Below are positions 6,280 to 34,214 of a DNA stretch of 64,000 nt, one piece after another. The notes under the pieces were generated by a model that ran no database searches, was not told where the DNA came from, and saw only the letters and a program-made list of their open reading frames with translations. The DNA is from a virus. Every line of letters starts with the position of its first letter. Within the stretch, counting starts at the first letter, position 1. The translations under genes and the position numbers were made by a program. Location of the stretch: IMG/VR virus record IMGVR_UViG_3300042301_004349, positions 107,172-171,171 of that record; one strand, 5' to 3'.

Positions 6280-7875
6280 TTAAACTGTTTCTAAACCGTG
6301 TACAATCACTTTACCATAGAATTCAGGACGAACCATTTTCTTAGCGTAACGAGTCATCAAACCTTTACGTGGAGTAAATGTTGTTGGATCGTATACTAAT
6401 GGAGTCATCATTACTGGGATATATGGAGCGAATACAGCACCTGTTTCCAAGAACTGAGCACCTTTGTAACCCATCAAGATGATGTTTTCAGTGAAGTAAG
6501 GGTTTTTGTAAACTTTGTAACGGCTGTTTAAAGAACCGATCTTTTGGATACCGAAGTTGAATTCAGCTTTATCACCATCACCATCAGAAGCAAATCCTGG
6601 GATTGATTCTAAGATAGTAGCTACAGTTGGAGATACTACTAAGAAGTTAGCACCACCACGTAATGTTAATTGGTGAATCTTGTTAGAAACTTTCTGTAAT
6701 TTAGTTCCTAAAGTTTGGAACCAACCACCTTGAGTGTTGAAGAAAGTGTTTGTTAAAGCAGCGAAAGAGCTACCGTTCCAAGCCACGTTGTTCTGAGCTG
6801 ACCAATATTCAGTTGTAGAAGTTGGTACGTTCTTAATCAACATTTCTAAGATTTCTAAATCGATTTCCATAGAGATGTACTGGCTCATTAAGCTAGTTAA
6901 TTCAGCTTCAGCATCGATTGAATGGTAAGCATTCAAATCCTGAGCGAATTCTGGAGTCCATTGTGCTTTTAACTTACGAGTCTTAGCAACAACTGCTTCA
7001 GACTTCATGTTAACATCCAATGAAGGGATAACGATTTGAGAAGCGCTATTAGCGTTAGGAACGCTATAATCAGCTCTATCTTCGAAATCACCACGAGCGT
7101 TATCACGGTTAGCTTTGTTGAAGAACAATACTACGTTTTCTTTAGCACCACCGTCTACTACGTAAACGATATCGCTACCTACAACTTTAGTGTACTGAGG
7201 TAATACTTTAGATTCGTCAGCAGTAGAACCACTAATGAAAGTACCACGAACAGCTTCAACATCTAAATCTGTAATACCAGCAGCACCAGTAACAGTTACT
7301 TTTTTCAAAGTAGTTAAAGATACTGTTGTATCATAATTAACATCAGCTAAAGTAGCAGAAGCAGTAGCAACTGAAGCAGAAGCAAATGATTGAGAGAATT
7401 GGTTGATTGAATAACCAAATTTACCAACACCATACAAACCTTTTGCTGTATCAGTTGATTTTAAATCAGTAGAAGCACCATATAAAGATCCTTCAAATGC
7501 TTTCTTATCTGTACCATATTTGAAGTCAAGATAGAAAATAAGACCTGAAGGTAAGCTCATAGATTGAACTGAAACGAATTCTTTAGCGCTGATATCACCG
7601 AATACACGACGAACTAACGGTAAAGCAACTCCAGCCCAGTTCTCACCGAAACCAGCACCGAAAGTAGCTGCACCACCACCTAAACCAGTGTTGTTGCTTT
7701 CTACTACTAATTGCTTAGCTTGGTTTTCTAACAAGATAGCCATGTTGTTCTTCTCGATTTCATTCTTAAGACCTTCTAAAAGGCCAGACTTAGTCCACTT
7801 AGAAACTAAGGTATTAGCTGTATCCATTACACGAGCGTAAGGATTAGCTGATTCTAATAATTGTTGAATTTCCAT
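6280..7875 (-). CDS. gp23-like major capsid protein
   Basis: At 531 residues it is close to T4 gp23 (521). The region after residue 65 matches the T4-type mature N-terminus: a Gly-rich stretch, then WAGVALPLVRRVFGDI and FVSVQSMSLPSGLIFYLDFKYG, an arrangement shared with gp23. The C-terminus TRYAKKMVRPEFYGKVIVHG is also typical. The first 60 residues form a helical propeptide ending KQLVVE before SNNTGLGGG, which I predict as the prohead protease cleavage site. The very N-terminus, MEIQQLLES, also has the leader pattern. It follows the scaffold gene and ends in a strong terminator. Many SGS-type insertions appear in the central domain. Confidence 0.93.
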   Translation of the reverse strand: MEIQQLLESANPYARVMDTANTLVSKWTKSGLLEGLKNEIEKNNMAILLENQAKQLVVESNNTGLGGGAATFGAGFGENWAGVALPLVRRVFGDISAKEFVSVQSMSLPSGLIFYLDFKYGTDKKAFEGSLYGASTDLKSTDTAKGLYGVGKFGYSINQFSQSFASASVATASATLADVNYDTTVSLTTLKKVTVTGAAGITDLDVEAVRGTFISGSTADESKVLPQYTKVVGSDIVYVVDGGAKENVVLFFNKANRDNARGDFEDRADYSVPNANSASQIVIPSLDVNMKSEAVVAKTRKLKAQWTPEFAQDLNAYHSIDAEAELTSLMSQYISMEIDLEILEMLIKNVPTSTTEYWSAQNNVAWNGSSFAALTNTFFNTQGGWFQTLGTKLQKVSNKIHQLTLRGGANFLVVSPTVATILESIPGFASDGDGDKAEFNFGIQKIGSLNSRYKVYKNPYFTENIILMGYKGAQFLETGAVFAPYIPVMMTPLVYDPTTFTPRKGLMTRYAKKMVRPEFYGKVIVHGLETV

Positions 7876-9196: not shown

Positions 9197-9805
9197 CTAG
9201 CAAAGAGGGCAAACGCCTGTTTGGTTGCAAATAATTTCTGTGATTAATCCGCTTACTTTACTATAATCTTTACTAACTTGTGTTGTTTTACCTTCAGATA
9301 ATGACATGTAAGCACCAGGTGTTGAAGGTACTGATACTAGATCCCAACATAATAGTTCGAAATCGTCTTGTACTTCTACTGTTTCACCCAATTGCTTAAC
9401 ACTACCCATACCACGAGATGAAATACCTAATGGAATGCCTGCTAATACAATTTCTTGTGCGATTTTACCTGATGGGGTGTTTAGTAATTCTAATTCACCC
9501 ATAACATCGTTACCTTCCCACCACACTTTAGTAATGATGTGAGAAACGTTATTTAAATTAATAATTGATGATTCTGGGTGGTCTAATTCACCTGTTGCTG
9601 TTCTAGTAGCTACCGGCCCTTTAGTATACATTTCCACTTGCTTTCTAAGAATATTCATAGGGTAAACACGTCCATTGCCGTTTTTAACTTCGGCTTCTTG
9701 TAATTTACCTTTGATACGCATTCTACTACCATTCATTTCTTTACCTTCAGATAAAGTAAGTTTGGCTACGTGGAATGGTGTATGGTCTACTAATAGTTGT
9801 TTCAT
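9197..9805 (-). CDS. gp21-like prohead core protease
   Basis: This serine protease matures the T4-type prohead by cutting after [L/I]-x-E. The 202-residue protein has the family hallmarks: ATGELDHPESSIIN with the candidate catalytic His near residue 75, and PLGISSRGMGSV with the candidate nucleophile Ser near residue 132, then a Trp-Asp segment (CWDLVSVPSTPGAYM). It is about the T4 length (212). Two possible self-cleavage sites, KLTLSEG and MSLSEG, are present. It ends with an odd Cys-rich tail NQTGVCPLC. It lies directly upstream of the scaffold and capsid genes. Confidence 0.9.
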   Translation of the reverse strand: MKQLLVDHTPFHVAKLTLSEGKEMNGSRMRIKGKLQEAEVKNGNGRVYPMNILRKQVEMYTKGPVATRTATGELDHPESSIINLNNVSHIITKVWWEGNDVMGELELLNTPSGKIAQEIVLAGIPLGISSRGMGSVKQLGETVEVQDDFELLCWDLVSVPSTPGAYMSLSEGKTTQVSKDYSKVSGLITEIICNQTGVCPLC

Positions 9806-13786: not shown

Positions 13787-15649
13787 TTATTTTTCTATAC
13801 CCTTGATGTTATCTTCATTTAATAAATTAGATTCTACAGGTTTTGTATTCTCGTATAATGTTATCTTTTTCTGTTCAGCAGCTTCTTTAGCTTTTTTCAA
13901 TTCAGATAATGCTAGTGGTGAACCACCCTTATACGCTGTTTGCATTGGGTTTTTATCCTGGTTAGCAGTCATATTGTATTCCTTACTACCAATTGGGTCT
14001 TTACCAAATGAACTTTTCTGAGTGCCGAATATAGATGCTTTTTGTGTTGGGCGACCAACTGGATCTTTTTCATCATATCCTATTGGTACAGCACCTTGTC
14101 CACTTCTACCCTTACCATATAGTGAAGCTAAGTCATGTGGTGTACCGAATGATCTACCTGTTTTAGCTGGGTCATTACCTTCATTTTCAACTTGTTGAAG
14201 TCTAAATGCACGTTTTTTATCCTCTAATACTAAATCACGATATTCATCTATTTGATCATCACTAAATTGGAATATTCTATCGTATATAAAATCAGATGGG
14301 ATAATACCTGTATCAAGAGCATCTTTAGCTAATGATACTTTTTCCTTCCACATTGCTACCTGTTCTTGTTGGTAGATGATTGAAGGAGGTGTTAATGATA
14401 ATTCAAAGCTTGTTAATGAATCACCATCAAATCCTTGTGTATATAAGTGTACTAATGCAATTTTATGCAATTCAGATACAATTACTTTTTGGATACGTTC
14501 AATTGTACGAGCAAATCGAATATCTTCAGCAGCTAATGTAGCCTTACCAGTTAAATCTTTTTCAAATCCAAAGAATGCTTTAGGTACCTTAAGAGCAGCT
14601 AACATTTCATCACGTAAGAAGTTTACATCCTCAATACCGTTGTATTCTAAACCTTTTAAGGTATCAATTTTAGTATTTTGGTTTGCACCCCTAACTGGTA
14701 TAATAAAATCTTCAAGTGAATTTTGAATATTGAAACGTAAATTATATTCACCTGTTTGAGCATCCATGAATGGAGTCTTCTTCATTTTATTGGTGATACG
14801 CTCCATGTAGTTATCAACTTCATGAGCTGGTATTCCACCTACGTCTACATAAAAAATACGTTTTTCTGGAGATCTCATAATACGATGTATTAACATCGCA
14901 TCTTTCATTAATGTATATTGCTTGTAAACCTTACGAGCTGGTTCAATAAATGAACGTCCATAAGGAAGATAATTAGCATCAGCATATAATCTAAAGTGAG
15001 CAACTTCATAGTTTTCAAAGCGCTTCTTCATATTACTTTTATCCATATGAAGCGTACTTGCTAATGCATTTGGATCATATTCATAATAAACCTCAAATGG
15101 GTTTTCAGGATTTAAACCTTCTCTTCTAGCTAACTCATATGATGATAAAGGCATAACATTATATACCCCCATTTCACTATTAATTTCTAAGAATAAGTAA
15201 AAATCACCGTATTTACACATTTGGCGAGTCCAGGGCCAAAGATTAAATTCGATATTTAATATATCATAAAATAAATTATAAAGTACTCTTTGTACTTTTT
15301 CATCTGAAGAACGTATTTGTAATACTTCTCCAGCTTCATTTTTTAATGTAGTTTCATCAGCAACAATATCAAGAGCAGAAGCAATAATCGATTCTGAATC
15401 CATTGCTTCGTAATCATTGTATAATTGTGTTCTTAATGTCTGATAGTTAATAGCAGGATTGAACATAGCTGACATGCTAGTTCTATGTAAACGTGTAAAA
15501 CGGTCTACTAAGCTATTTGTTTGTACACTTCCATAGGCTTGAACACGATCCGTGTCTACCACTTTTAATTGATTTCCACCAATGTTTCTTACGATAACAT
15601 CAGTTGAAAATAATCTTCTTAGCCTTGAAAATAAATCTGTATTAGCCAT
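13787..15649 (-). CDS. gp20-like portal protein
   Basis: The portal is the dodecameric ring at the head vertex through which DNA enters and leaves. The 620-residue protein has T4 gp20-type features: an N-terminal MDSESIIASALDIVADE segment, a central QYTLMKDAMLIHRIMRSPEKRIFYVDVG segment, and LKVPKAFFGFEKDLTGKATLAAED further on. The C-terminal 120 residues are Gly/Lys/Asp-rich and probably disordered. It follows the terminase gene with only a short gap, rather than being separated by sheath and tube genes as in T4. Confidence 0.92.
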   Translation of the reverse strand: MANTDLFSRLRRLFSTDVIVRNIGGNQLKVVDTDRVQAYGSVQTNSLVDRFTRLHRTSMSAMFNPAINYQTLRTQLYNDYEAMDSESIIASALDIVADETTLKNEAGEVLQIRSSDEKVQRVLYNLFYDILNIEFNLWPWTRQMCKYGDFYLFLEINSEMGVYNVMPLSSYELARREGLNPENPFEVYYEYDPNALASTLHMDKSNMKKRFENYEVAHFRLYADANYLPYGRSFIEPARKVYKQYTLMKDAMLIHRIMRSPEKRIFYVDVGGIPAHEVDNYMERITNKMKKTPFMDAQTGEYNLRFNIQNSLEDFIIPVRGANQNTKIDTLKGLEYNGIEDVNFLRDEMLAALKVPKAFFGFEKDLTGKATLAAEDIRFARTIERIQKVIVSELHKIALVHLYTQGFDGDSLTSFELSLTPPSIIYQQEQVAMWKEKVSLAKDALDTGIIPSDFIYDRIFQFSDDQIDEYRDLVLEDKKRAFRLQQVENEGNDPAKTGRSFGTPHDLASLYGKGRSGQGAVPIGYDEKDPVGRPTQKASIFGTQKSSFGKDPIGSKEYNMTANQDKNPMQTAYKGGSPLALSELKKAKEAAEQKKITLYENTKPVESNLLNEDNIKGIEK

Positions 15650-15682: not shown

Positions 15683-17260
15683 CTAACCCAACAACCATCG
15701 TGTATCTTCTACATTTCCACGACCATCATCTATTTTGTATGGGTTGCCACCAGATATCCACTGCCCACCCCCATACATTTGATCTCCAGTTTTTCTAAAG
15801 TTTAATAAACTAGAAACCGCTAAATCACGACCTATTTGCGCAAATCTGGATGCTGTGTCTCTAATAAACAGACCCATTGATAATGATAATACTAAATCAT
15901 CATTGTACCCATTTTGTGCTTGTCCCTTACCGTGCATCCATATAAACACTCTTAATTCTTCAAGTAAGCGTTTCGAATGAAAGGTAAATGATTTGTCTCG
16001 AAGGTACGACTCCATTTTTGAGATAACAAGTGGTCTTGTCTTTGCTGATGTAGTAAATCCAGGAACTGTTTGCCCTGAGTCTAATTTTGATAGATATTTG
16101 TCAGCACTTAATTCACCATATGAACGAGGTGAATAGTATAAATTAGCGTATTCACGGTCTATAATAGTATTTACAACATCCCAACCAATATTAGCATTTT
16201 CCACCACTAAAAGCGCATTATTATATTCAGTAGCAACTGATACTAACATGTTTCCATATTCACGTGTGCCTATTTGAGATTTAAATTCAGCCACTTGTTG
16301 ACATGCTTCAAGATCAATAACTTGGAATGCAGAATAGTCACTTCCATCACCTCGGGCCACGTCAGCCGATACAATATAATTTTTATTATAATCCGGGTAT
16401 TGCCATATCCAAAAATCACCACCCATGAATCGACGTTCAACAGGGTCCATTATAAACCCATCATAATATTCTAATGTTTCTGGGTCAATTACTGTTGCTC
16501 CAGATCCTAAAAAGTCACAATCATATTCCTGCGCGAAATCTCTTGCAGTCATATTTTCTTTTTCATTCTTAACCCAAGCAGCATCTCTATCAGGGTGAAC
16601 ATCCCATTTTAGTTGGATAGGAACAAAACTATTTTTACTTAATTCTGCTTCAACCCAAGTTTTATGGAACCAGTTACCTACACCGTTTGGTGAAGATAAT
16701 GCTACGCAACCACCCCCTGTTGAAATGGTAGGTTTAATCGCGGTATAAATTTTATCAATACCTTCAATAAAGGCGGCCTCATCCATAATCAACCAAGATA
16801 CAGCAAATGAACGACCAGCATCACTAGAGGCTGATGTTGCTTTAATAAATGATCCGTTTGATAATTTTAATGAGGTTTGGTTTGATGCTACTGGTTTAGA
16901 ACCTTTTAACCATGATGGTAAGTTATTATACATGAATTGAACTTTCTCAACCATGTTTTGTGCAGTAAGTTGCTTAGTAGCAATACACAATATTGCTTTG
17001 TCTTTATGGAATAACATTAACCACAAAGCATAACCAGCACATAATGTAGAAATACCTAACTGACGAGACTTATTAATAATATTGTAATCGTTTGCTCGAA
17101 ATGATTTTAATACATCTTCCTGGAAAGGGTATAGATGGAATAAAATTCTGCCTTTAATTGGGTGGGTAATGAAACAATATTTTCTAAAGAAATGGACAGG
17201 ATCAGAAGCACATTTAATGTATTCCTGTTTAATTATATCTTTTATATTTTGATCACTCAT
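15683..17260 (-). CDS. gp17-like terminase large subunit
   Basis: This is the DNA-packaging motor: an N-terminal ATPase and a C-terminal headful nuclease. Visible motifs are a Q-motif region, the Walker A-type SRQLGIST near residue 60, Walker B SWLIMDEAAFIEG near residue 155, and the coupling motif ALSSPNG. The nuclease has SADVARGDGSDYSA near residue 298, VVENANIGWD near 350 and YNDDLVLSLSMG near 452, giving acidic metal ligands. The usual Walker A lysine (SRQLGKT in T4) is replaced, so the Arg of SRQ or another residue must take its role. It lies behind a terminator and candidate late promoter. No separate small terminase was recognised. Confidence 0.93.
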   Translation of the reverse strand: MSDQNIKDIIKQEYIKCASDPVHFFRKYCFITHPIKGRILFHLYPFQEDVLKSFRANDYNIINKSRQLGISTLCAGYALWLMLFHKDKAILCIATKQLTAQNMVEKVQFMYNNLPSWLKGSKPVASNQTSLKLSNGSFIKATSASSDAGRSFAVSWLIMDEAAFIEGIDKIYTAIKPTISTGGGCVALSSPNGVGNWFHKTWVEAELSKNSFVPIQLKWDVHPDRDAAWVKNEKENMTARDFAQEYDCDFLGSGATVIDPETLEYYDGFIMDPVERRFMGGDFWIWQYPDYNKNYIVSADVARGDGSDYSAFQVIDLEACQQVAEFKSQIGTREYGNMLVSVATEYNNALLVVENANIGWDVVNTIIDREYANLYYSPRSYGELSADKYLSKLDSGQTVPGFTTSAKTRPLVISKMESYLRDKSFTFHSKRLLEELRVFIWMHGKGQAQNGYNDDLVLSLSMGLFIRDTASRFAQIGRDLAVSSLLNFRKTGDQMYGGGQWISGGNPYKIDDGRGNVEDTRWLLG

Positions 17261-26722: not shown

Positions 26723-29339
26723 TATTTTTTTCGTTTATATGTTTACGAAGTAATTCTTTAAATTCTTTTATATGGCCTGGGTGGTCTGCTAAATATTCAT
26801 TTACAATATACTTATGTGCCTCTGCCAACCCTCGTTGTTGTAATACTGTTAATAAATCTGCTGGTGAAGCTAATGGTAAAGCATTGTTACCACCCTCATT
26901 ACCAACCAATACATAGTTACTATTACCTGGTTGTACGTTAATGGATGCTATAATTTGTTGGTTTGCTAATCTAATAATATAGATTTTACTAGCACCAATT
27001 TGGATTACTCTTCCTACTCTACCTGAAGTACCTAATAAATTATTACGACGAGAAGCACCTCTATCACCATTCGGATCAACACGGGATGCATTAATTGCAT
27101 TTATTCTTCTAAATATAGCTCTTGGTAAACGAAGGAAAGCTGCTTCTAATCCTATTGCATTCATTTCTTCACGAACGTTAATATCACCTGTTAGTGGAGC
27201 TGCTTGAGTTTGTTGACGAGGAGCATTTGGAACACCAGCTGGTCTTCCTCTTCTACCTGTTGTTGGGGCTGCTGCCACACCAGCGGCAGCTGGAGCTGCA
27301 GTGCCTAATATTTGTGCTACTTTTGAAGTAGGAATATTTACAACAACTAATTTACCTGATGTAGAAGATATTGAGTAACTTGTTCTTGGATTTGCAGTAT
27401 TAACAATATAAGGAACATCATTGTATATAACAGATCTAAGTCTGCTACCAGCTTGCATCGGTGGGTTAGCACCAATAATAGCTTTTCTAACATCACCCCC
27501 TTGATAACTTGCTACATTTTTCATAGCATTGATATATTGTTCATCACTAAATGCCATGTTTTTAGATCTAAAATGATCAAATAAAGCAGAATATACTGCT
27601 GTATCTCTGGAAGGGGAATTTAAGGTTTTTTGTCTCCAATCTAATCCTTGTCGACCATAAAGTGCTGTTGGTATTAAACTATTTAATCCTCGGGCCAATT
27701 CATGAACAATTATTGGTGATTCCTCACTATTAGTTAAAATTACATCAGCGGGACTGCCTCTCCATTCAACTGTTCTTTTATCTTGAGGGACAGATCTTAG
27801 GAATGAAACATATGCTTCTTTATCTATAGTAGCAGGAATATTTTCTTCATATCTAATCAATGATAAGGCATTCTTTTGGAACCCTTCATTATCTTTTTGT
27901 TGAGAAAATATTTCTTGTACATCTTCATCATCAAAAGGTACTTTAGAAACTTTATCATTTTCTATTTTATATGAAGCAAATGAATTAGAATCAATTAATA
28001 TTGTTTTATTCTTAAGGTCTTTAGCAATAATAGATGAATTATCATCTGTTTTTGCCTTTTCAATTACATTATTTAATACACTTTTATCAATAATTTCATC
28101 AGAAACTAATGATATTAAATTTTTAAAAGGTATTTGACTTAAATCTGGGTAGTCTAGTAAGTATTTTGATGTACGTTTATTTAATTTAATATTTGGATAA
28201 TCATCTTCTTCAGTAAATAGACCTACTTTAATATCATCTCCTAAAGTTAATTTAATAATATTTTCATTATCTTTAGTAACATATATTCTTTCATTTTTAG
28301 GAAGTTCCCATTTTTCAAATTTAACTAAAAACTTTTTAACTTCAAATGGAATAGAATCTAAAGATAAAAATTTCAAATTGATTTTATCTCTCATATTTGC
28401 TATGATAGACTTTACATCTTGATTTGAAAATTTATCTAAGTTTTTAACTAAAGTAAGACTATCTAAAATACCAAAATTAGTAGCAATAGTATTAGCAATT
28501 TGAGGATATTTAGGTAAATATTTTTCTACGAAAGTATCATTACTAATATCTTGAAATAGGTCTTTACCTTTTCTAACAACTAAATATTGTTCTTTAACTT
28601 GAAAAGAAAATTTAATCCATTCTCTAATACCAACAGGTCTATTTTTATAAGATTGATTTAATTTTTCTTTAGAAGATAAGGGGATGTACTTAAATACACT
28701 TCTTAAACCAACAACTGAAGGAAAATTAGATTCAATAAAACTCCATGGTTCCCATCTATCCCACTCTGTAGCTCTACCACCAACATCATTGTTTGATCTA
28801 TCTGATGCTTTATAAGTATTATCACTACCAACAACAACCACAAAGAAACTCTTACGATCACTATTAGGTAGATTTGTATCTTTTACAAGATAAAATGTTG
28901 GGTTTTTTCTACCATCATCGTAACGATAGTTACCAAATGAACCTCTAGTAATACACCAAGATTCACCTCTACCAAAAGTTAAACAATTTTCTTCTTTAGA
29001 ACCATTATAAATAATTAAACCATTTTGATCATAAACAACATCTGGTGTAGTGTCTACTTCATCTTCAGGTTCTTCAACACCTTTAGTTGATGTAACTAAT
29101 TTTATTAATTTAGATAAATTATATTTACGTAAATCTTTTTCAGTAACTTTAGGTGAATTTTTTAAAGAATCAAAACGTTCAATATATGCTTTTAATTGAG
29201 CATCACTTATTTGAATATTTAAATCATCAGCTTCTTCCCTAAATTTAGCCATCAATTTATTAATCTCACCTTCTGAATATTCATTAAGTGGGAATAAATT
29301 ATGGGTTACGTGTAATATAAATTTGTCTATTGCTCTCAT
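26712..29339 (-). CDS. Large cargo-block protein with WCI motif and AT-hook
   Basis: The 875-residue protein has a helical N-terminus, then ENCLTFGRGESWCITRGSF near residue 118 and NPTFYLVKD, a motif block I recall from uncharacterised phage proteins. A central strand-rich region of about 400 residues follows. Near residue 695 is a Pro/Ala-rich linker with TGRRGRPAGVP, a classic AT-hook. A C-terminal alpha/beta domain ends in a basic helix. The leader is less clear than in its neighbours (FPLNEYSEG near residue 20). An injected DNA-binding protein is possible; no catalytic site is identified. Confidence 0.5.
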   Translation of the reverse strand: MRAIDKFILHVTHNLFPLNEYSEGEINKLMAKFREEADDLNIQISDAQLKAYIERFDSLKNSPKVTEKDLRKYNLSKLIKLVTSTKGVEEPEDEVDTTPDVVYDQNGLIIYNGSKEENCLTFGRGESWCITRGSFGNYRYDDGRKNPTFYLVKDTNLPNSDRKSFFVVVVGSDNTYKASDRSNNDVGGRATEWDRWEPWSFIESNFPSVVGLRSVFKYIPLSSKEKLNQSYKNRPVGIREWIKFSFQVKEQYLVVRKGKDLFQDISNDTFVEKYLPKYPQIANTIATNFGILDSLTLVKNLDKFSNQDVKSIIANMRDKINLKFLSLDSIPFEVKKFLVKFEKWELPKNERIYVTKDNENIIKLTLGDDIKVGLFTEEDDYPNIKLNKRTSKYLLDYPDLSQIPFKNLISLVSDEIIDKSVLNNVIEKAKTDDNSSIIAKDLKNKTILIDSNSFASYKIENDKVSKVPFDDEDVQEIFSQQKDNEGFQKNALSLIRYEENIPATIDKEAYVSFLRSVPQDKRTVEWRGSPADVILTNSEESPIIVHELARGLNSLIPTALYGRQGLDWRQKTLNSPSRDTAVYSALFDHFRSKNMAFSDEQYINAMKNVASYQGGDVRKAIIGANPPMQAGSRLRSVIYNDVPYIVNTANPRTSYSISSTSGKLVVVNIPTSKVAQILGTAAPAAAGVAAAPTTGRRGRPAGVPNAPRQQTQAAPLTGDINVREEMNAIGLEAAFLRLPRAIFRRINAINASRVDPNGDRGASRRNNLLGTSGRVGRVIQIGASKIYIIRLANQQIIASINVQPGNSNYVLVGNEGGNNALPLASPADLLTVLQQRGLAEAHKYIVNEYLADHPGHIKEFKELLRKHINEKNNAN

Positions 29340-30202
29340 TACTTATTGAACTTTACTTTTGCTTTATCAGTATTAGCTACAAATTGTTTACCTTTTTTAG
29401 ATCCTGCTACTTTTTTACGAGCAGTTGCTGCACGTTCTGCTTTAGTTAATCTATTTGCTTTAGCACGAGGTAAACAACGAGTAGTTGCTTTATCTTTTTT
29501 CATTGTACCACAAGGACCAGTTATGTTACCTTGTGTATCAATTCTAACCCAATCTTCTTTTTTAAACCAATCGCGTAGTGATTCAGTTAAACTTTTTACA
29601 TTGAAATATTTTTTTAAATCAATATTATTACTCTTAGCATCTTCTAAACTAATTGTTTCAGGAACTATACCTTCTTCCCACTCAGTTTCAGGGGTAGCAA
29701 GTTTAACATCACTATTATTTAAAATGATTGCTTTTATTTCTGGTATGTTTCCTATTTTAAAAGCACCTAAGCGGTGATTTCCATCTAAGATTAAATATTT
29801 TCCAGGCAATAGTGGGTGGTTTAAGGCTACGACTGGTGGGAACGATTCTATACCTTTTTCTTTAGCAACCTTTATCATTTTTTCAACATAAGATTTTTTC
29901 TCTGTGTTGAAGTAATTAAGATCTTTATTTGGTTCGTTACCAATACAATCGTTAATTTTTAAAATTTTTATTTCACCACTTATATTTTCAGCAATGTCGC
30001 TTCCTTGAAAATCCGGATATATAATAGTATTATCTTCTATATCATCTACTTCCATCAAACCTTTACATACTTTAACAGCACGGCCAGAAAGATAAGCTGA
30101 TGGTTTTTCACCAGCAGCTCTACGACGATCGTAATAGGCTTTGCCTTTTTTGCAAAGCTTTTCTAAAAGAACTTCATTTAATATTTCTTGTAGTTTTATC
30201 AC
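29339..30202 (-). CDS. Leader-bearing ParB/Srx-like fusion protein
   Basis: After the leader MIKLQEILNE comes a Lys/Arg-rich region (KKGKAYYDRRRAAGEKPSA) with two Cys. Residues 80-165 read FPPVVALNHPLLPGKYLIL followed by DGNHRLGAF, the signature of ParB/sulfiredoxin-type nucleotide-binding domains. The last 80 residues form a basic Cys-containing domain (ITGPCGTMKKDKATTRCLP, then TKAERAATARKK) known as a small stand-alone phage module. The fusion suggests a DNA-acting effector delivered with the genome, which is inference. Confidence 0.6.
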   Translation of the reverse strand: MIKLQEILNEVLLEKLCKKGKAYYDRRRAAGEKPSAYLSGRAVKVCKGLMEVDDIEDNTIIYPDFQGSDIAENISGEIKILKINDCIGNEPNKDLNYFNTEKKSYVEKMIKVAKEKGIESFPPVVALNHPLLPGKYLILDGNHRLGAFKIGNIPEIKAIILNNSDVKLATPETEWEEGIVPETISLEDAKSNNIDLKKYFNVKSLTESLRDWFKKEDWVRIDTQGNITGPCGTMKKDKATTRCLPRAKANRLTKAERAATARKKVAGSKKGKQFVANTDKAKVKFNK

Positions 30203-30468
30203 GACTTATATATCTTTAATAATAACTTATCATGGCCTTTTATAACACGATGCCAAGTATGTCTTGGTATAAATATCGGTTTGTCCATAGATATTGGTAG
30301 TTCATTTTCTAGTTGAATCAACCAATTATTAGAATTAATAGATTCTATAAGACGATTTTCATCGTCACGATGCCAAAGGAGTTCGATAGGATCTATACTC
30401 TCATCGAACTCTCTTATAATATATTCTTTTGTTGTTTCTAGATCAACATATGGTCTACCAGTATCCAC
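30199..30468 (-). CDS. Small cupin-like phage protein
   Basis: The 89-residue protein has the pattern LLWHRDDENRLIES, then LIQLENELPI, then IFIPRHTWHRVIKGHDKL, resembling a widespread family of small cupin-like proteins in T4-type phages, with candidate His ligands. It overlaps the upstream gene by 14 bases and the downstream one by four. Function is unknown. Confidence 0.6.
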   Translation of the reverse strand: MDTGRPYVDLETTKEYIIREFDESIDPIELLWHRDDENRLIESINSNNWLIQLENELPISMDKPIFIPRHTWHRVIKGHDKLLLKIYKS

Positions 30469-31093
30469 TAAATGATGTTTTAAAACCTAATAATTTAGCA
30501 TATCTTGGTAAACGACATGACCAATATGATGCTTTTGTTCTATCTTTTTTCTGAGAGCAATTATGACGAGCTGCGAATGCCTTGCGTGCTTTAGGATTAT
30601 TTAGTTTTGCACGTAATCCTGTAGTATCACCAAATGATACTTTTTTAATTTTACCTTTATCTCGAACATAAACATAGAACTTTTTAGAACCACCACGCTT
30701 TGGTTTTCCAATTGGAGGTGTTTTCTTTTTATCTTTAGTCTCGTCTATTTCCATAGACTCATGTAAATCAACTAATTCATCTAATGAAATTGGATAATCT
30801 AATGGTACTCTAATACCGTTATACACCCCATATTCACCTATGTTTGATTCTAATAATTCAGCATCATCTTCAGTTACAGATAATATACCTTTATTGTATA
30901 ATTCACGTGCTTCACGGAATAGAGAAAAATAATTTTCAGATAATGGGCGATAGATATTGTGAATTAATTGTTTACCTTCTGTGATATGATATTTCATACC
31001 TTCAGATAACATTATTTCTTGTCCTTCTGATATTAGTTGAGGGCCATTACATCCGCAATCTTGTTCTTCAATTAAATCACTTAATTTTATCAT
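30455..31093 (-). CDS. Leader-bearing protein with phage FAARHNC domain
   Basis: The leader MIKLSDLIEEQ is followed by CGCNGP and by further possible cleavage sites (QLISEG, IMLSEG, YHITEG). The C-terminal 75 residues read KKFYVYVRDKGKIKKVSFGD, then KAFAARHNCSQKKDRTKASYW and SCRLPRYAKLLGF, a domain common in myoviruses with conserved Cys and aromatic residues. Multiple tandem LxEG sites suggest that the first 60 residues are cut up during prohead maturation. The domain function is unknown. Confidence 0.65.
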   Translation of the reverse strand: MIKLSDLIEEQDCGCNGPQLISEGQEIMLSEGMKYHITEGKQLIHNIYRPLSENYFSLFREARELYNKGILSVTEDDAELLESNIGEYGVYNGIRVPLDYPISLDELVDLHESMEIDETKDKKKTPPIGKPKRGGSKKFYVYVRDKGKIKKVSFGDTTGLRAKLNNPKARKAFAARHNCSQKKDRTKASYWSCRLPRYAKLLGFKTSFSGYW

Positions 31094-31409: not shown

Positions 31410-31993
31410 TAGGATTGTGTTATTGATTTTACTTTTTCAATATATTCTTGGAATTCTTTAATTAGTTCATTATTATTTCCACCAGACCATTGTTCCATTT
31501 CACCATTTTCAGTAACAATTTGTTCAGGATGTACATCATTTATTAAATCTTGTAATATTTGTTCAAGATCACCTATAAATCCTTTAGCGTTACGTTGAAC
31601 CATGTCTTGGACGTACGCTTCATATTTACCATCTAAACGCAATTTGGTTTCTCTTTTAATAACACAATCAAAGCATTCTTTATGTATTGCATACATTTTA
31701 GTATCCAATACTTTCTTTTTCATTGCTTTACCGCATTTAGGACATGTTAGTGGAATTTGAAGGGCTTTTTTAACTAAATCTAATTTGGATATGGTCATCT
31801 TAATACCATTCTTAATGGTCCATTTTTTACCATTCTCTTCCCAAATATCTCCTTCTTTATAATCAACGGAAACTTTAGTATAACCTACTTGAGTAGAGAT
31901 TTTATCTCCGTATTTTTTATTAACTATATTTCTTACTCTTTGTACATCTCTTTCTCGAAACTCTTTTTTCAAAACACTTTCGTTACCTATCAT
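31409..31993 (-). CDS. Zinc-ribbon protein
   Basis: I start at MIGNESVLKKEF, whose ATG overlaps the upstream stop as ATGA. The central LTCPKCGKAMKKKV pairs with HKECFDC to form a likely four-Cys zinc ribbon near residues 84-113. Helices follow, with an acidic C-terminus. Similar proteins are found in T4-like marine phages without known function. A role in transcription or packaging cannot be decided. Confidence 0.55.
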   Translation of the reverse strand: MIGNESVLKKEFRERDVQRVRNIVNKKYGDKISTQVGYTKVSVDYKEGDIWEENGKKWTIKNGIKMTISKLDLVKKALQIPLTCPKCGKAMKKKVLDTKMYAIHKECFDCVIKRETKLRLDGKYEAYVQDMVQRNAKGFIGDLEQILQDLINDVHPEQIVTENGEMEQWSGGNNNELIKEFQEYIEKVKSITQS

Positions 31994-33378
31994 AAACCTA
32001 ATTCTTTTAGTTGTTGGATTGTATCGGCAGCTGAAGTATGTAGAACACCAATACCTCCTGCTTCTTTCCATCTTTGAATATTATCTGCTCTATCATCAAT
32101 CAATATTGATCTAGGAGATGCATAAAATTGTTTGTATTCTGCTGATTTCAATAATAAAGGAACACCTGGTAAATTTGTGTTTACCCATTTTTGTTTTCCT
32201 GTTCTTGATGATTCTTGTCTTGAAGGGGCTGAGAGTAGTTTAGGTAAATATGGTTTAATGTAGCTCCATAATTCTTTGCCATCTTTCATCCATTCCATTT
32301 CAGTCCAAAATGACTCACCAGCATCAGTTATTGGTTGCCAAAAAGCAGCATCACCTTTAACATGATTTCCTCTAATGTTTTTACCTGTTAATTTTTCGTA
32401 AGCACCTTCAAAATCAGCAATAACGCCATCCATATCACAATAGATTTTGTATTGTTGTTCTTTTGATTCAAATATCATAGGATTAATTTGTGCAAATTTT
32501 CTCATTATTTGACCAGCTTTAGAATTTGCTTCATTTTCAGTATCAGAACCTGTGGTTCCGTCTAAAGGTTGGCCTTTTTGTTTTTGTGATAGGTGTACTA
32601 ATTCATGAGAAACAGTTCGGCAAATATCAGCCATATTACGATTACCCGTGTAAATCCATATCTTATCGTCTTGTGGACTATATAACCCCATTGACTTCAT
32701 TTCCCTCGCTTTCTCCGTATCCCTACTTATCACGATTTTTCCCCCTCCCCCCTCAATACCCAATTCACGTAGGGTAAATCTAATGAACTCCTTTAATAAA
32801 GTCAAGTTTTCTTTGCCTTCTTTTAACTCTTCTTTTTCTGTGTCACCCATTGTGTAACCAGCAGCATTCATGAATTGCTTCACATCGATGCCATCTGGTA
32901 AGAATTTTTTAATTAGGTTTTCACTTTTAGCTTTAATTGCTATTCTAAAATCAGTAGCACTTATATTATCAAATGTACCTGCATTAAACAATTCAGCATT
33001 CTTATATTTTTCATTTTTCAATATTGATGAAAAACGAGTAAATTCATCTTTACCAAAAGCAGCAATAATTTTTGCTTCTGGATTTGATGTGATTAGATTA
33101 TAAGTTTCACTAACAGGGTTTTCATCTACAATTAAAAAATTAACATTTCCTGGGAGTAATGTTTTGTATAGTTCCCACACTCTATAACTTTCGTCTGCAG
33201 TAACTCCTTCACGAGTTTTAGGTGAAATAAAGATTTGAACCTCATCACACATATCAGATAAACGTTTAACAACATTAAAGTGACCTTTATGTGGTGGTTT
33301 AAATGCACCCGGAAATACACCAATGATGTATTGTTTTTCCTCTAATAATTGTTTTGCTATGTGTTGTCCTAAATTCAT
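31990..33378 (-). CDS. Fusion of nucleotidyltransferase, HExxH and HAD domains with capsid leader
   Basis: The leader MNLGQHIAKQLLE precedes YIIGVFPGAFKPPHKGH, the nucleotide-binding motif of the cytidylyltransferase-like superfamily (residues 18-165). Near residue 245 is TVSHELVHLSQKQKGQ with a downstream ENEANSKAG, the pattern of a compact zinc metallopeptidase with a third Glu ligand. From about residue 310, YCDMDGVIADFEGAY begins a HAD-type phosphatase domain of the 5'-nucleotidase kind, ending with SILIDDRADNI. Three enzyme-like domains in one 462-residue chain with a cleavable leader is striking. I infer packaging into the head and action after injection. Confidence 0.75.
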   Translation of the reverse strand: MNLGQHIAKQLLEEKQYIIGVFPGAFKPPHKGHFNVVKRLSDMCDEVQIFISPKTREGVTADESYRVWELYKTLLPGNVNFLIVDENPVSETYNLITSNPEAKIIAAFGKDEFTRFSSILKNEKYKNAELFNAGTFDNISATDFRIAIKAKSENLIKKFLPDGIDVKQFMNAAGYTMGDTEKEELKEGKENLTLLKEFIRFTLRELGIEGGGGKIVISRDTEKAREMKSMGLYSPQDDKIWIYTGNRNMADICRTVSHELVHLSQKQKGQPLDGTTGSDTENEANSKAGQIMRKFAQINPMIFESKEQQYKIYCDMDGVIADFEGAYEKLTGKNIRGNHVKGDAAFWQPITDAGESFWTEMEWMKDGKELWSYIKPYLPKLLSAPSRQESSRTGKQKWVNTNLPGVPLLLKSAEYKQFYASPRSILIDDRADNIQRWKEAGGIGVLHTSAADTIQQLKELGL

Positions 33379-34214
33379 TACTGTACAAATGATTTTACTT
33401 TAGATATAATTTCTGATTCAGATAAAACGGATTCTTTGATTTTTTTATCAATATTAATAAATTCGCGTTCTAACTGCTCTACTTGTTTTTTATAGTTTTC
33501 TCTTGATTTTTCTGCCGCTTTATCTTTTTTAGCCTGCTCATCAGGTGATAAAGGTTCATCTTGAGTCTTGCGAAAAGTGGATACAAATTGTTCAGGGTTA
33601 GTTTGGGTTAGTTGTTCTAACCAATCAAATAATTTACCTTGTTGAACTGCTTGATTAAATCCATTAATTTCTTTTTGATATTCTTGATCAGGAGCTTGAT
33701 ATAATACAAAATTATCTCCTAATTTATTTTTATAAGTGTCTATGTTCCCGTAAACATTATTCCACGTTTGGATAACACCCACTTTAGGTACTTTACGTTC
33801 ACGTTTAAAGTTTCTTAAAAATGATACAATAGGGTGAGCATAAACCATGATCATTAATGTATCATAATTAGACGCAGTATTTAATAAACCTGGTACTTCC
33901 TTTCGTTTATATAAACCACCAATCAATTTAGCCGCATTAGACGCGGTAGTATCCCAAATAAACGCTTTACCTGTTGAGAGTGCATTAGGTACGTCAACAT
34001 CATCTACTTGAGCAGAAGCCGCAGTAAGATTATTGAACATTTCGCTTGATTTATCTTCAATATACTTATCTGGGTTGATTATTTCAAAACCAGGTGTTAC
34101 TCCTTTAATTTTATTTATTAAAGTAGACTTCCCGGCACCGGCGCCCCCCGCCATGATTATCATTTTATTTTGAGGCATGGCTGCTTCCATTAATAAGTCA
34201 ATTAGTTTAATCAT
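33378..34214 (-). CDS. Leader-bearing zeta-toxin-like P-loop protein
   Basis: The leader MIKLIDLLMEA is followed directly by MIIMAGGAGAGKSTLINKI, a Walker A loop, and FEIINPDKYIED, the arrangement of zeta-toxin/polynucleotide-kinase-like proteins. A basic segment RNFKRERKVPKVGVIQ fits an arginine lid. The C-terminal 60 residues are a charged coiled coil. The protein could phosphorylate a nucleotide sugar or nucleic acid. It lies downstream of the nuclease-primase pair, behind a hairpin. Confidence 0.68.
   Translation of the reverse strand: MIKLIDLLMEAAMPQNKMIIMAGGAGAGKSTLINKIKGVTPGFEIINPDKYIEDKSSEMFNNLTAASAQVDDVDVPNALSTGKAFIWDTTASNAAKLIGGLYKRKEVPGLLNTASNYDTLMIMVYAHPIVSFLRNFKRERKVPKVGVIQTWNNVYGNIDTYKNKLGDNFVLYQAPDQEYQKEINGFNQAVQQGKLFDWLEQLTQTNPEQFVSTFRKTQDEPLSPDEQAKKDKAAEKSRENYKKQVEQLEREFINIDKKIKESVLSESEIISKVKSFVQ

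Follow-up and report, generated by a model that had tools for sequence, protein, structure and literature searches.

The DNA analysed here (the window) is a stretch of 64,000 nucleotides, positions 107172-171171 of the 171,171-base virus record IMGVR_UViG_3300042301_004349 from IMG/VR. Its head genes are of T4-like type: major head protein, head maturation protease, portal and large terminase. In the block of head genes lies an open reading frame (ORF) on the minus strand, 31990-33378, which starts with ATG, contains no internal stop and encodes a chain of 462 residues. In this chain a short leader is followed by a nucleotidyltransferase domain (NT), a zincin-like domain (MP) and a HAD phosphatase-like domain, with approximate domain boundaries as in Table 1. 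A sequence-only reading of this DNA had described three enzyme domains fused behind a capsid-type leader. This observation is confirmed by the intact ORF, by profile matches, by conserved motifs and by an AlphaFold model.

The chain is present at full length, with 80-100% identity, in six IMG/VR contigs (L003-L008) and is therefore not an assembly artefact; a further copy (L009) is cut by the end of its contig. In four pairwise comparisons the ratio of non-synonymous to synonymous substitution rates (dN/dS) was 0.04-0.29 for NT, MP and HAD, lowest for MP, which points to purifying selection on all three. The full-length AlphaFold model has a mean predicted local distance difference test score (pLDDT) of 83 and a predicted template modelling score (pTM) of 0.40. 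Its pLDDT falls below 50 solely at segments 8-11, 178-189 and 305-307, and in the model the three domains are independent of one another. The best viral structure match to the full model was BFVD entry A0A6J5LVS0 from an uncultured phage (657 aa; E=5.8e-17, 379 alignment columns), which may be another multi-domain chain.

Table 1. Features of the 462-residue chain and of associated head genes. Positions are those of the window and ↓ marks a putative point of cleavage.
Feature	Residues	Position	Strand	Description
Three-domain ORF	1-462	31990..33378	(-)	leader, NT, MP, HAD
Leader	1-13	33340..33378	(-)	MNLGQHIAKQLLE; predicted capsid targeting sequence, L-x-E end
NT domain	17-175	32854..33330	(-)	HIGH-superfamily nucleotidyltransferase, PPAT/NMNAT-like; motifs GAFKPPHKGH and ISATDFR
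Putative prohead-protease site LKE187↓G, NT-MP linker		32818..32826	(-)	[LI]KE↓G in 6/6 aligned sequences; inside 178-189, pLDDT <50
MP domain	191-300	32479..32808	(-)	zincin-like fold; HELVH (258-262); probable third ligand, E281
Putative prohead-protease site IFE304↓S, MP-HAD linker		32467..32475	(-)	IFE↓[SA] in 6/6 aligned sequences; adjoins low-confidence 305-307
HAD domain	307-462	31993..32460	(-)	5'(3')-deoxyribonucleotidase-like phosphatase; DMDGVIADF, S383, K395, DD428-429
Prohead (head maturation) protease, gp21/Peptidase S77 type		9197..9805	(-)	PF03420 E=7.5e-32; phrog_207 E=1.2e-53
Major head protein		6280..7875	(-)	phrog_138 E=1.2e-67; probable propeptide site E59 (VVE↓S), taken as calibration for the protease rule
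Portal		13787-15649		T4-like head gene
Large terminase		15683-17260		T4-like head gene
Head-block protein with leader		29339..30202	(-)	site LTE207↓S right before C-terminal domain 208-273; phrog_23735 208-273 E=5.5e-13
Head-block protein with leader		30455..31093	(-)	several [IL]xE↓[GS] sites before C-terminal KKFxVYV domain; phrog_7595 115-194 E=2.2e-14
P-loop kinase-like protein		33378..34214	(-)	leader MIKLIDLLME↓A; PF06414/PF13671 weak; phrog_2071 ATPase E=7e-8

The three domains

HxGH and ISxTxxR-type motifs on a Rossmann-like fold are the hallmarks of the HIGH nucleotidyltransferases, and by motifs, fold and curated profile score the NT domain is a member of this superfamily. It passed TIGR00125 (cyt_tran_rel) with 31.9 bits against a cut-off of 27.7. 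With PF01467 it scored 20.1 bits (E=7.8e-4) in a protein search, where the cut-off is 21, and 21.8 bits, above the cut-off, in a genome search. Matches were also obtained to phrog_395 (cytidyltransferase) and phrog_3462 (nicotinamide-nucleotide adenylyltransferase). Counting rows with a residue at the column concerned, H33 was found in 38/38, R145 in 36/38 and H30 in 35/38, and A141 is conserved too. PPAT structures matched model residues 16-178 at Z ~15, and the Foldseek list for the domain was headed by NadM, NadR and NadD. A sequence search of the PDB gave weak adenylyltransferase matches to NT and none over MP or HAD, together with two unrelated matches over residues 9-77 and 64-141 (E 0.25 and 0.63).

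Assignment of NT as an NMNAT or a PPAT was rejected, as the scores were far below the equivalog cut-offs of TIGR01510 (31.6 vs 103.3), TIGR00482 and TIGR01526. Where the sequence-only reading had a cytidylyltransferase-like domain, the nucleotidyltransferase part stands and the cytidylyl label is too specific, the nearest folds being the adenylyltransferases PPAT, NadM and NadD. The available part of PMC9503650 deals with phage NadM and NadR. Outside the window, the same phage record has a second, stand-alone CTP_transf_like gene (L001 G000:C1:12650-12946).

Profile matches to the MP domain were weak (DUF6782, E=0.07). A relative, L023, gave E=0.001 for DUF6782 and ~0.005 for M78 and Tox-MPTase3 over the same domain, all under their cut-offs. 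Without exception, the 28 aligned MP sequences keep the two His and the Glu of HExxH and a Glu further downstream. Modelled alone, the domain reached a pLDDT of 90 and a pTM of 0.86; zincins topped the structural list for this model (Z up to 9.1), and Foldseek against the PDB returned no match at E <=0.001. It contains the N-terminal helix, three-stranded sheet, HExxH helix and ligand-Glu helix by which zincins are defined in the accessible text of PMC5512222. The HExxH metallopeptidase-like domain of the earlier description therefore holds as a zincin-like fold with a conserved motif; peptidase activity can only be suggested, because the zincin fold also includes the ribonuclease YbeY.

The four HAD motifs of NT5C are DxDGV, S/T, K and DD. 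These motifs and the deoxyribonucleotidase fold were both found in the HAD domain, for which phosphatase activity on nucleotides is predicted. D315, D317, K395, D428 and D429 are invariant in the 23 HAD rows and S383 occurs in 20 of them. The domain matched phrog_2643 (5'-3' deoxyribonucleotidase) at E=1.2e-28, and its PF06941 score of 17.2 (E=0.0048) lay below the gathering score of 24.8. Structural matches were 3bwv (Z 15.2) and human cdN/mdN (14.9 for a human enzyme). The phrog_2643 match, the motifs and the structures together bear out the HAD phosphatase-like domain that had been proposed from DMDGVIADF.

The leader and probable packaging into the capsid

According to the available text of PMC9026906, internal proteins of T4 have leaders of 10-19 residues and gp21 cuts after L/I-x-E. 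LLE13 fits this rule, and the leader ends in [LI]LE in all six aligned sequences (the window and five close orthologues). The chain thus combines both features of a T4-type capsid-targeted internal protein, an L/I-x-E leader and a gp21-type protease encoded in the same genome. Within the head block (6280-34214), 21 of 31 genes have [IL]xE with its Glu at positions 8-25, against 11 of 44 other window genes; the comparison figure for internal windows of the head block was 83/420. The counts of leaders and sites cover 75 of the 87 minus-strand ORFs of >=60 aa, 12 small, edge or overlapping ones having been left out by hand.

In some relatives each domain also occurs as a free-standing protein with a leader of its own: NT in L049 and, more distantly, in S-SM1 (MKKFSAFLNE↓A) and S-SRM01; MP in B23 (45% identity to the window MP); and HAD in immuto, L147, L156 and L158. 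The S-SM1 protein, SSM1_190, is the cyanophage citidylyltransferase T4-GC190, which PMC3037559 reports among proteins newly detected in the virion. It and the window NT both match phrog_395 (5.9e-129 and 1.9e-6) and phrog_3041 (8.2e-63 and 3.5e-4), and S-SM1, Melnitz and HTVC008M are linked through these two families. It differs from the window protein in being distant, in having ~70 other residues ahead of NT and in giving no zincin or HAD family match in profile searches.

The claim of a capsid-type leader is upheld. Packaging of the chain is likely: in its favour are the head-maturation protease gene in the window, the similar leaders on many head-block genes and the virion detection of a leader-bearing protein that is distantly related to the NT domain alone.

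Putative cleavage sites at the joints

In the window protein [IL]xE↓[AGS] occurs solely at LKE187↓G, in the linker from NT to MP, and at IFE304↓S, in that from MP to HAD; where P1′ is another residue, [IL]xE is also found at 13, 14, 197, 205 and 459. The same motif was counted in 16 distinct chains, which were picked by MNLGQ within the first 12 residues, so that the leader is theirs by choice, and from which identical sequences were removed. There were 31 sites in 2716 residues outside NT, MP and HAD and one in 4991 residues inside, corresponding to 11.4 and 0.2 per 1000 residues, compared with 2.0 in the 44 other window genes. In eight representatives (one chain per group, chosen by the author) the numbers were 15 outside and none inside. 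Control motifs gave outside/inside ratios of 1.15 ([IL]xE with other P1′), 0.56 ([IL]xD), 1.12 ([IL]xK) and 0.79 ([IL]x[STN]), none of them significant.

At the NT-MP joint P3 Leu/Ile and P1 Glu are kept in 15 of the 16 chains, L023 being the exception, while the residue between them varies (K, M, F, T, N). The end of MP reads I[FY]E in 11/11 chains that continue past it, with His at P1′ in L027 and L029. Four of the five chains that stop at MP end in IYQ; these four look closely related, so the replacement may be one event. L027 and L029, in which another segment is fused behind MP, have an internal leader-like stretch (KLKNILKE↓A and ATKKNILKE↓V) after MP and ahead of that segment. A divergent three-domain chain, L145, has two [ILMV]xE↓[AGS] sites, and both lie between domains.

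The major head protein, with residue 59 as the likely maturation site judged from its position, served as calibration. Among 79 distinct sequences (of 81 rows, from the best 80 of >=600 matches) P1 was Glu in 79/79, P3 was V in 64, I in 12, L in 2 and M in 1, P2 was free, and P1′ was A or S in 55/79. From the sequence patterns, cleavage at the joints of the three-domain chain is plausible. Propeptide removals in SPN3US are treated in the available part of PMC10052503. A literature search, chiefly of titles and abstract openings, gave no description of prohead-protease cleavage between the enzyme domains of a packaged chain.

Fused and split relatives

Among named phages 102 records matched the chain and none covered 80% of the query; among the 60 matches listed, all lay over the HAD end. 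The NT-MP part matched 24 named-phage records. A profile-based scan gave 43 loci, some cut short, with domain E-values inflated by iteration of the profiles on the same ORFs. NT, MP and HAD form a single ORF in seven of these (L003-L008, and L023 at 53%), and NT-MP is accompanied by a separate neighbouring HAD gene in eight. The remainder have MP and HAD separate (4), NT-MP only (9), NT only (11), NT and MP separate (3) or none of the three (1). L145, which matches at 39% over MP-HAD, is a further three-domain chain; its contig, of 14 kb, was placed in the bin of a bacterial metagenome-assembled genome. Some relatives carry large insertions between NT and MP.

In ten split loci that were checked (L024-L032 and L034) HAD starts 2-8 bases past the upstream stop, in the +2 frame relative to it in nine and in +1 in L028. 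Only 3-19 open codons lie upstream and no slippery run common to all ten was seen. A programmed frameshift joining NT-MP (or MP) to HAD was rejected in favour of coupled translation. The single chain of the sequence-only reading is kept in the six contigs at 80-100% identity. Outside this closest group it is split, free of any frameshift, in 8 of the 43 loci, the kind of split that the reading itself had named as a refutation. As judged by these sequences the three-domain fusion is lineage-specific, because other relatives have HAD as a separate gene directly downstream.

The order primase, exonuclease, ..., NT protein, HAD, 'ESLLKKEF' protein is common to the window, L010 and the Flavobacterium phage immuto. 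In immuto (QQO92100, QQO92101) the same domains were found, the NT matching the window-type profile at E=2.2e-25 and the HAD having its own leader. It differs in that HAD is a separate gene and that the first protein, of 907 aa, has an extra N-terminal part and, by eye, a second HExxH. In HTVC008M genes for a kinase, a cytidyltransferase and a KKFxVYV protein are consecutive and HAD follows three genes further. With the Melnitz NT as query 533 phage records were found.

A 1535-aa chain (L041:2111-6718) combines NT and MP with a match to the DNA polymerase beta palm (E=3.4e-4, under the cut-off) and is a more extended fusion built from these modules. In a leader-MP chain (L032:3491-4960) the C-terminal stretch is ADP-ribosyltransferase-like by eye, Pfam having given DUF6782 alone. 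Between the exonuclease and kinase genes of one relative lies a 1090-aa ORF (L008:1832-5104), the first 40 residues of which resemble, by eye, a Bacteroidota secreted/TonB-dependent outer-membrane protein.

Explanations for the three-domain chain

The best explanation, held with about even confidence, is that the chain is a capsid-targeted polyprotein cut by the prohead protease into separate injected enzymes. It would be made late, and its N-terminal leader would bring it into the prohead core. Inside the head the gp21-type protease would cut after LLE13, LKE187 and IFE304, freeing three small proteins: a PPAT/NMNAT-like adenylyltransferase, a zincin-like protein and a 5'(3')-nucleotidase-like HAD. 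These would be ejected with the DNA and be active at the start of infection. We infer late expression, cleavage, injection and substrates alike. From fold and motif, the separate enzymes would most likely act early on host nucleotides or nucleotide cofactors (NT and HAD) and on a host protein (MP). The presence together of an adenylyltransferase-like NT, a nucleotidase and a neighbour resembling a kinase gives a hint of a nucleotide or nicotinamide adenine dinucleotide (NAD)-type pathway.

Besides T4-GC190 and the immuto proteins, two known systems come closest to this arrangement. The T4 internal head proteins (IPI-III, Alt) likewise have leaders of 10-19 residues, L/I-x-E cleavage and a gp21-type protease, and several are ejected with the DNA. 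As far as the available text of PMC9026906 goes, however, gp21 removes terminal propeptides (at both ends in Alt) or breaks up the scaffold, whereas here the sites would part three enzyme domains. The polyvalent proteins of Iyer et al. (2017) also have disparate domains in one chain, a zincin-like domain and predicted injection, and the 462-aa chain, too, has at least two disparate domains in one polypeptide, its injection being predicted from the leader and the distant relative. In the accessible part of that account (PMC5512222) processing is ascribed to zincin or assemblin-like domains, in contrast to the separate head protease acting through L/I-x-E that is proposed here, and the combination of NT, zincin and NT5C-like HAD was not encountered in it.

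Several observations weigh against a cleaved, packaged polyprotein. Some concern the motif itself. The restriction to a small P1′ was the author's choice; without it the enrichment outside the domains is 2.5-fold (56 vs 41 sites), and with the P3/P1′ range of the capsid protein it falls to 3.5-fold (34 vs 18 sites). That range has Val at P3 in 64/79, strict L/I fitting just 14. The residues counted as outside include whole inserted and C-terminal segments, possibly domains themselves, and the chains are akin, so the p-values overstate independence. As to controls, [IL]xQ↓[AGS] was 3.1-fold up outside the domains, a non-significant difference (5 vs 3, p=0.14), and polar-x-E↓[AGS] was rarer there than inside (0.31). 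At individual sites, P1′ of the window leader is Glu (LLE↓E), L023 is without an [AGS] site at the NT-MP joint, L032 has LNE↓E there, and IYE↓H stands at the end of MP in L024, L027 and L029. The joint sites could also be remnants of the leaders of fused genes.

Others concern packaging and function. Against a profile of 15 window-type (MNLGQ-leader) NTs, made without cyanophage and SAR11-phage rows, the S-SM1 protein scored only 14.3 bits (E=0.018), a distant match, and the search at E up to 10 did not find Syn33, Melnitz, HTVC008M or S-SRM01. [IL]xE precedes the domain in just 9 of 30 distinct separate HAD ORFs and is absent in 21, in a count of ORFs that are not truncated at a contig end and whose HAD starts no later than residue 45. 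The HAD genes of L024-L034 begin at their own domain with no leader, and HAD therefore need not be packaged. NadV (PF04095) was not found in the virus record (0/1), which may be incomplete, and a complete phage NAD salvage was rejected on this ground.

That the chain is instead an intact three-domain enzyme, packaged via its leader and injected whole with its domains cooperating, is unlikely. The single ORF is indeed kept in L003-L008 and in the divergent L023 and L145, and the leader alone would suffice for packaging, but conserved protease-type sites at both joints, the independence of the domains in the model (pTM 0.40) and the relatives with separate HAD genes or large NT-MP insertions speak against it. 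Joint sites, pTM and separate HAD genes likewise leave the earlier suggestion, that the three activities work together as a composite enzyme, without support; the product is more likely a set of three proteins than one enzyme. It is improbable that the zincin domain, rather than the head protease, cuts its own chain. Autoproteolysis by zincins has been proposed for polyvalent proteins such as P1 DdrB (PMC5512222, available part), all 28 sequences keep the HExxH and the downstream Glu, and the zincin adjoins the joint with HAD. The joint motifs, however, obey the gp21 rule, they recur in the 29339 and 30455 proteins, which have no Pfam zincin match, and in looser form in the capsid protein, and the zincin is also a free-standing gene (B23). 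About equally improbable is an intracellular enzyme of nucleotide metabolism, kept out of the virion and with a leader that is fortuitous or for other use, for although leaderless HAD genes lie directly downstream in L024-L034, 21 of the 30 separate HAD ORFs are without [IL]xE and many phages have NT5C-like nucleotidases annotated as metabolic, the [LI]LE end is kept in 6/6 close sequences, the gene sits within a leader-rich block and virions are reported to contain a distant NT relative that bears a leader.

Cleavage of a packaged polyprotein may be tentatively extended, at somewhat below even confidence, to a T4-like phage group of which one relative infects Flavobacterium. Such phages would pack internal enzymes as cleavable polyproteins with a single entry tag, the head protease freeing modules at L/I-x-E joints. 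Modules (NT, zincin, HAD, ParB-like, KKFxVYV and others) would be gained, lost and swapped between joints, and fused and split layouts would yield similar packaged sets.

If true, this would account for domains that form one chain in some phages and are encoded separately in others. A T4-like head protease would then go beyond propeptide trimming and scaffold clearance and turn a tagged polyprotein into separate effectors, as with animal-virus proteases. There would be a sequence rule by which a phage's injected enzymes could be listed, and their mature ends predicted, from its genome. Candidate injected proteins would then include some NT5C-like nucleotidases as well as HIGH nucleotidyltransferases, whose genes are mostly annotated as metabolic. 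The reading gives a directly testable claim on the mature termini in virions.

Neighbouring head-block genes

Two other proteins of the block, 29339-30202 and 30455-31093, have a similar layout (Table 1). The neighbouring kinase-like protein has leader-bearing orthologues in relatives, and a tblastn search with it (33378-34214) against named phages gave no match. In the 29339-30202 protein the joint before the C-terminal domain, read from aligned rows, is [LMV]xE↓[SA] in 10/10 distinct orthologues, five with L, and it is kept with or without an inserted segment of ~150 aa. This segment is missing from the L004 orthologue, where the joint is LHE↓S.

Ahead of the KKFxVYV domain of the 30455-31093 protein, 14 of 16 distinct chains have [ILM]xE↓[AS] in a common register, HTVC008M and Melnitz included; the window's own LHE↓S is six residues off register and L004 is without a site close by. 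In Melnitz (L011:3608-5560) NT is fused to the KKFxVYV domain; the window phage and HTVC008M encode that domain in a gene of its own.

By eye, residues ~56-204 of the 29339-30202 protein, inserted relative to L004, form a ParB-like (GNHR) segment. In L004 a similar GNTR segment sits in a separate leader-bearing gene.

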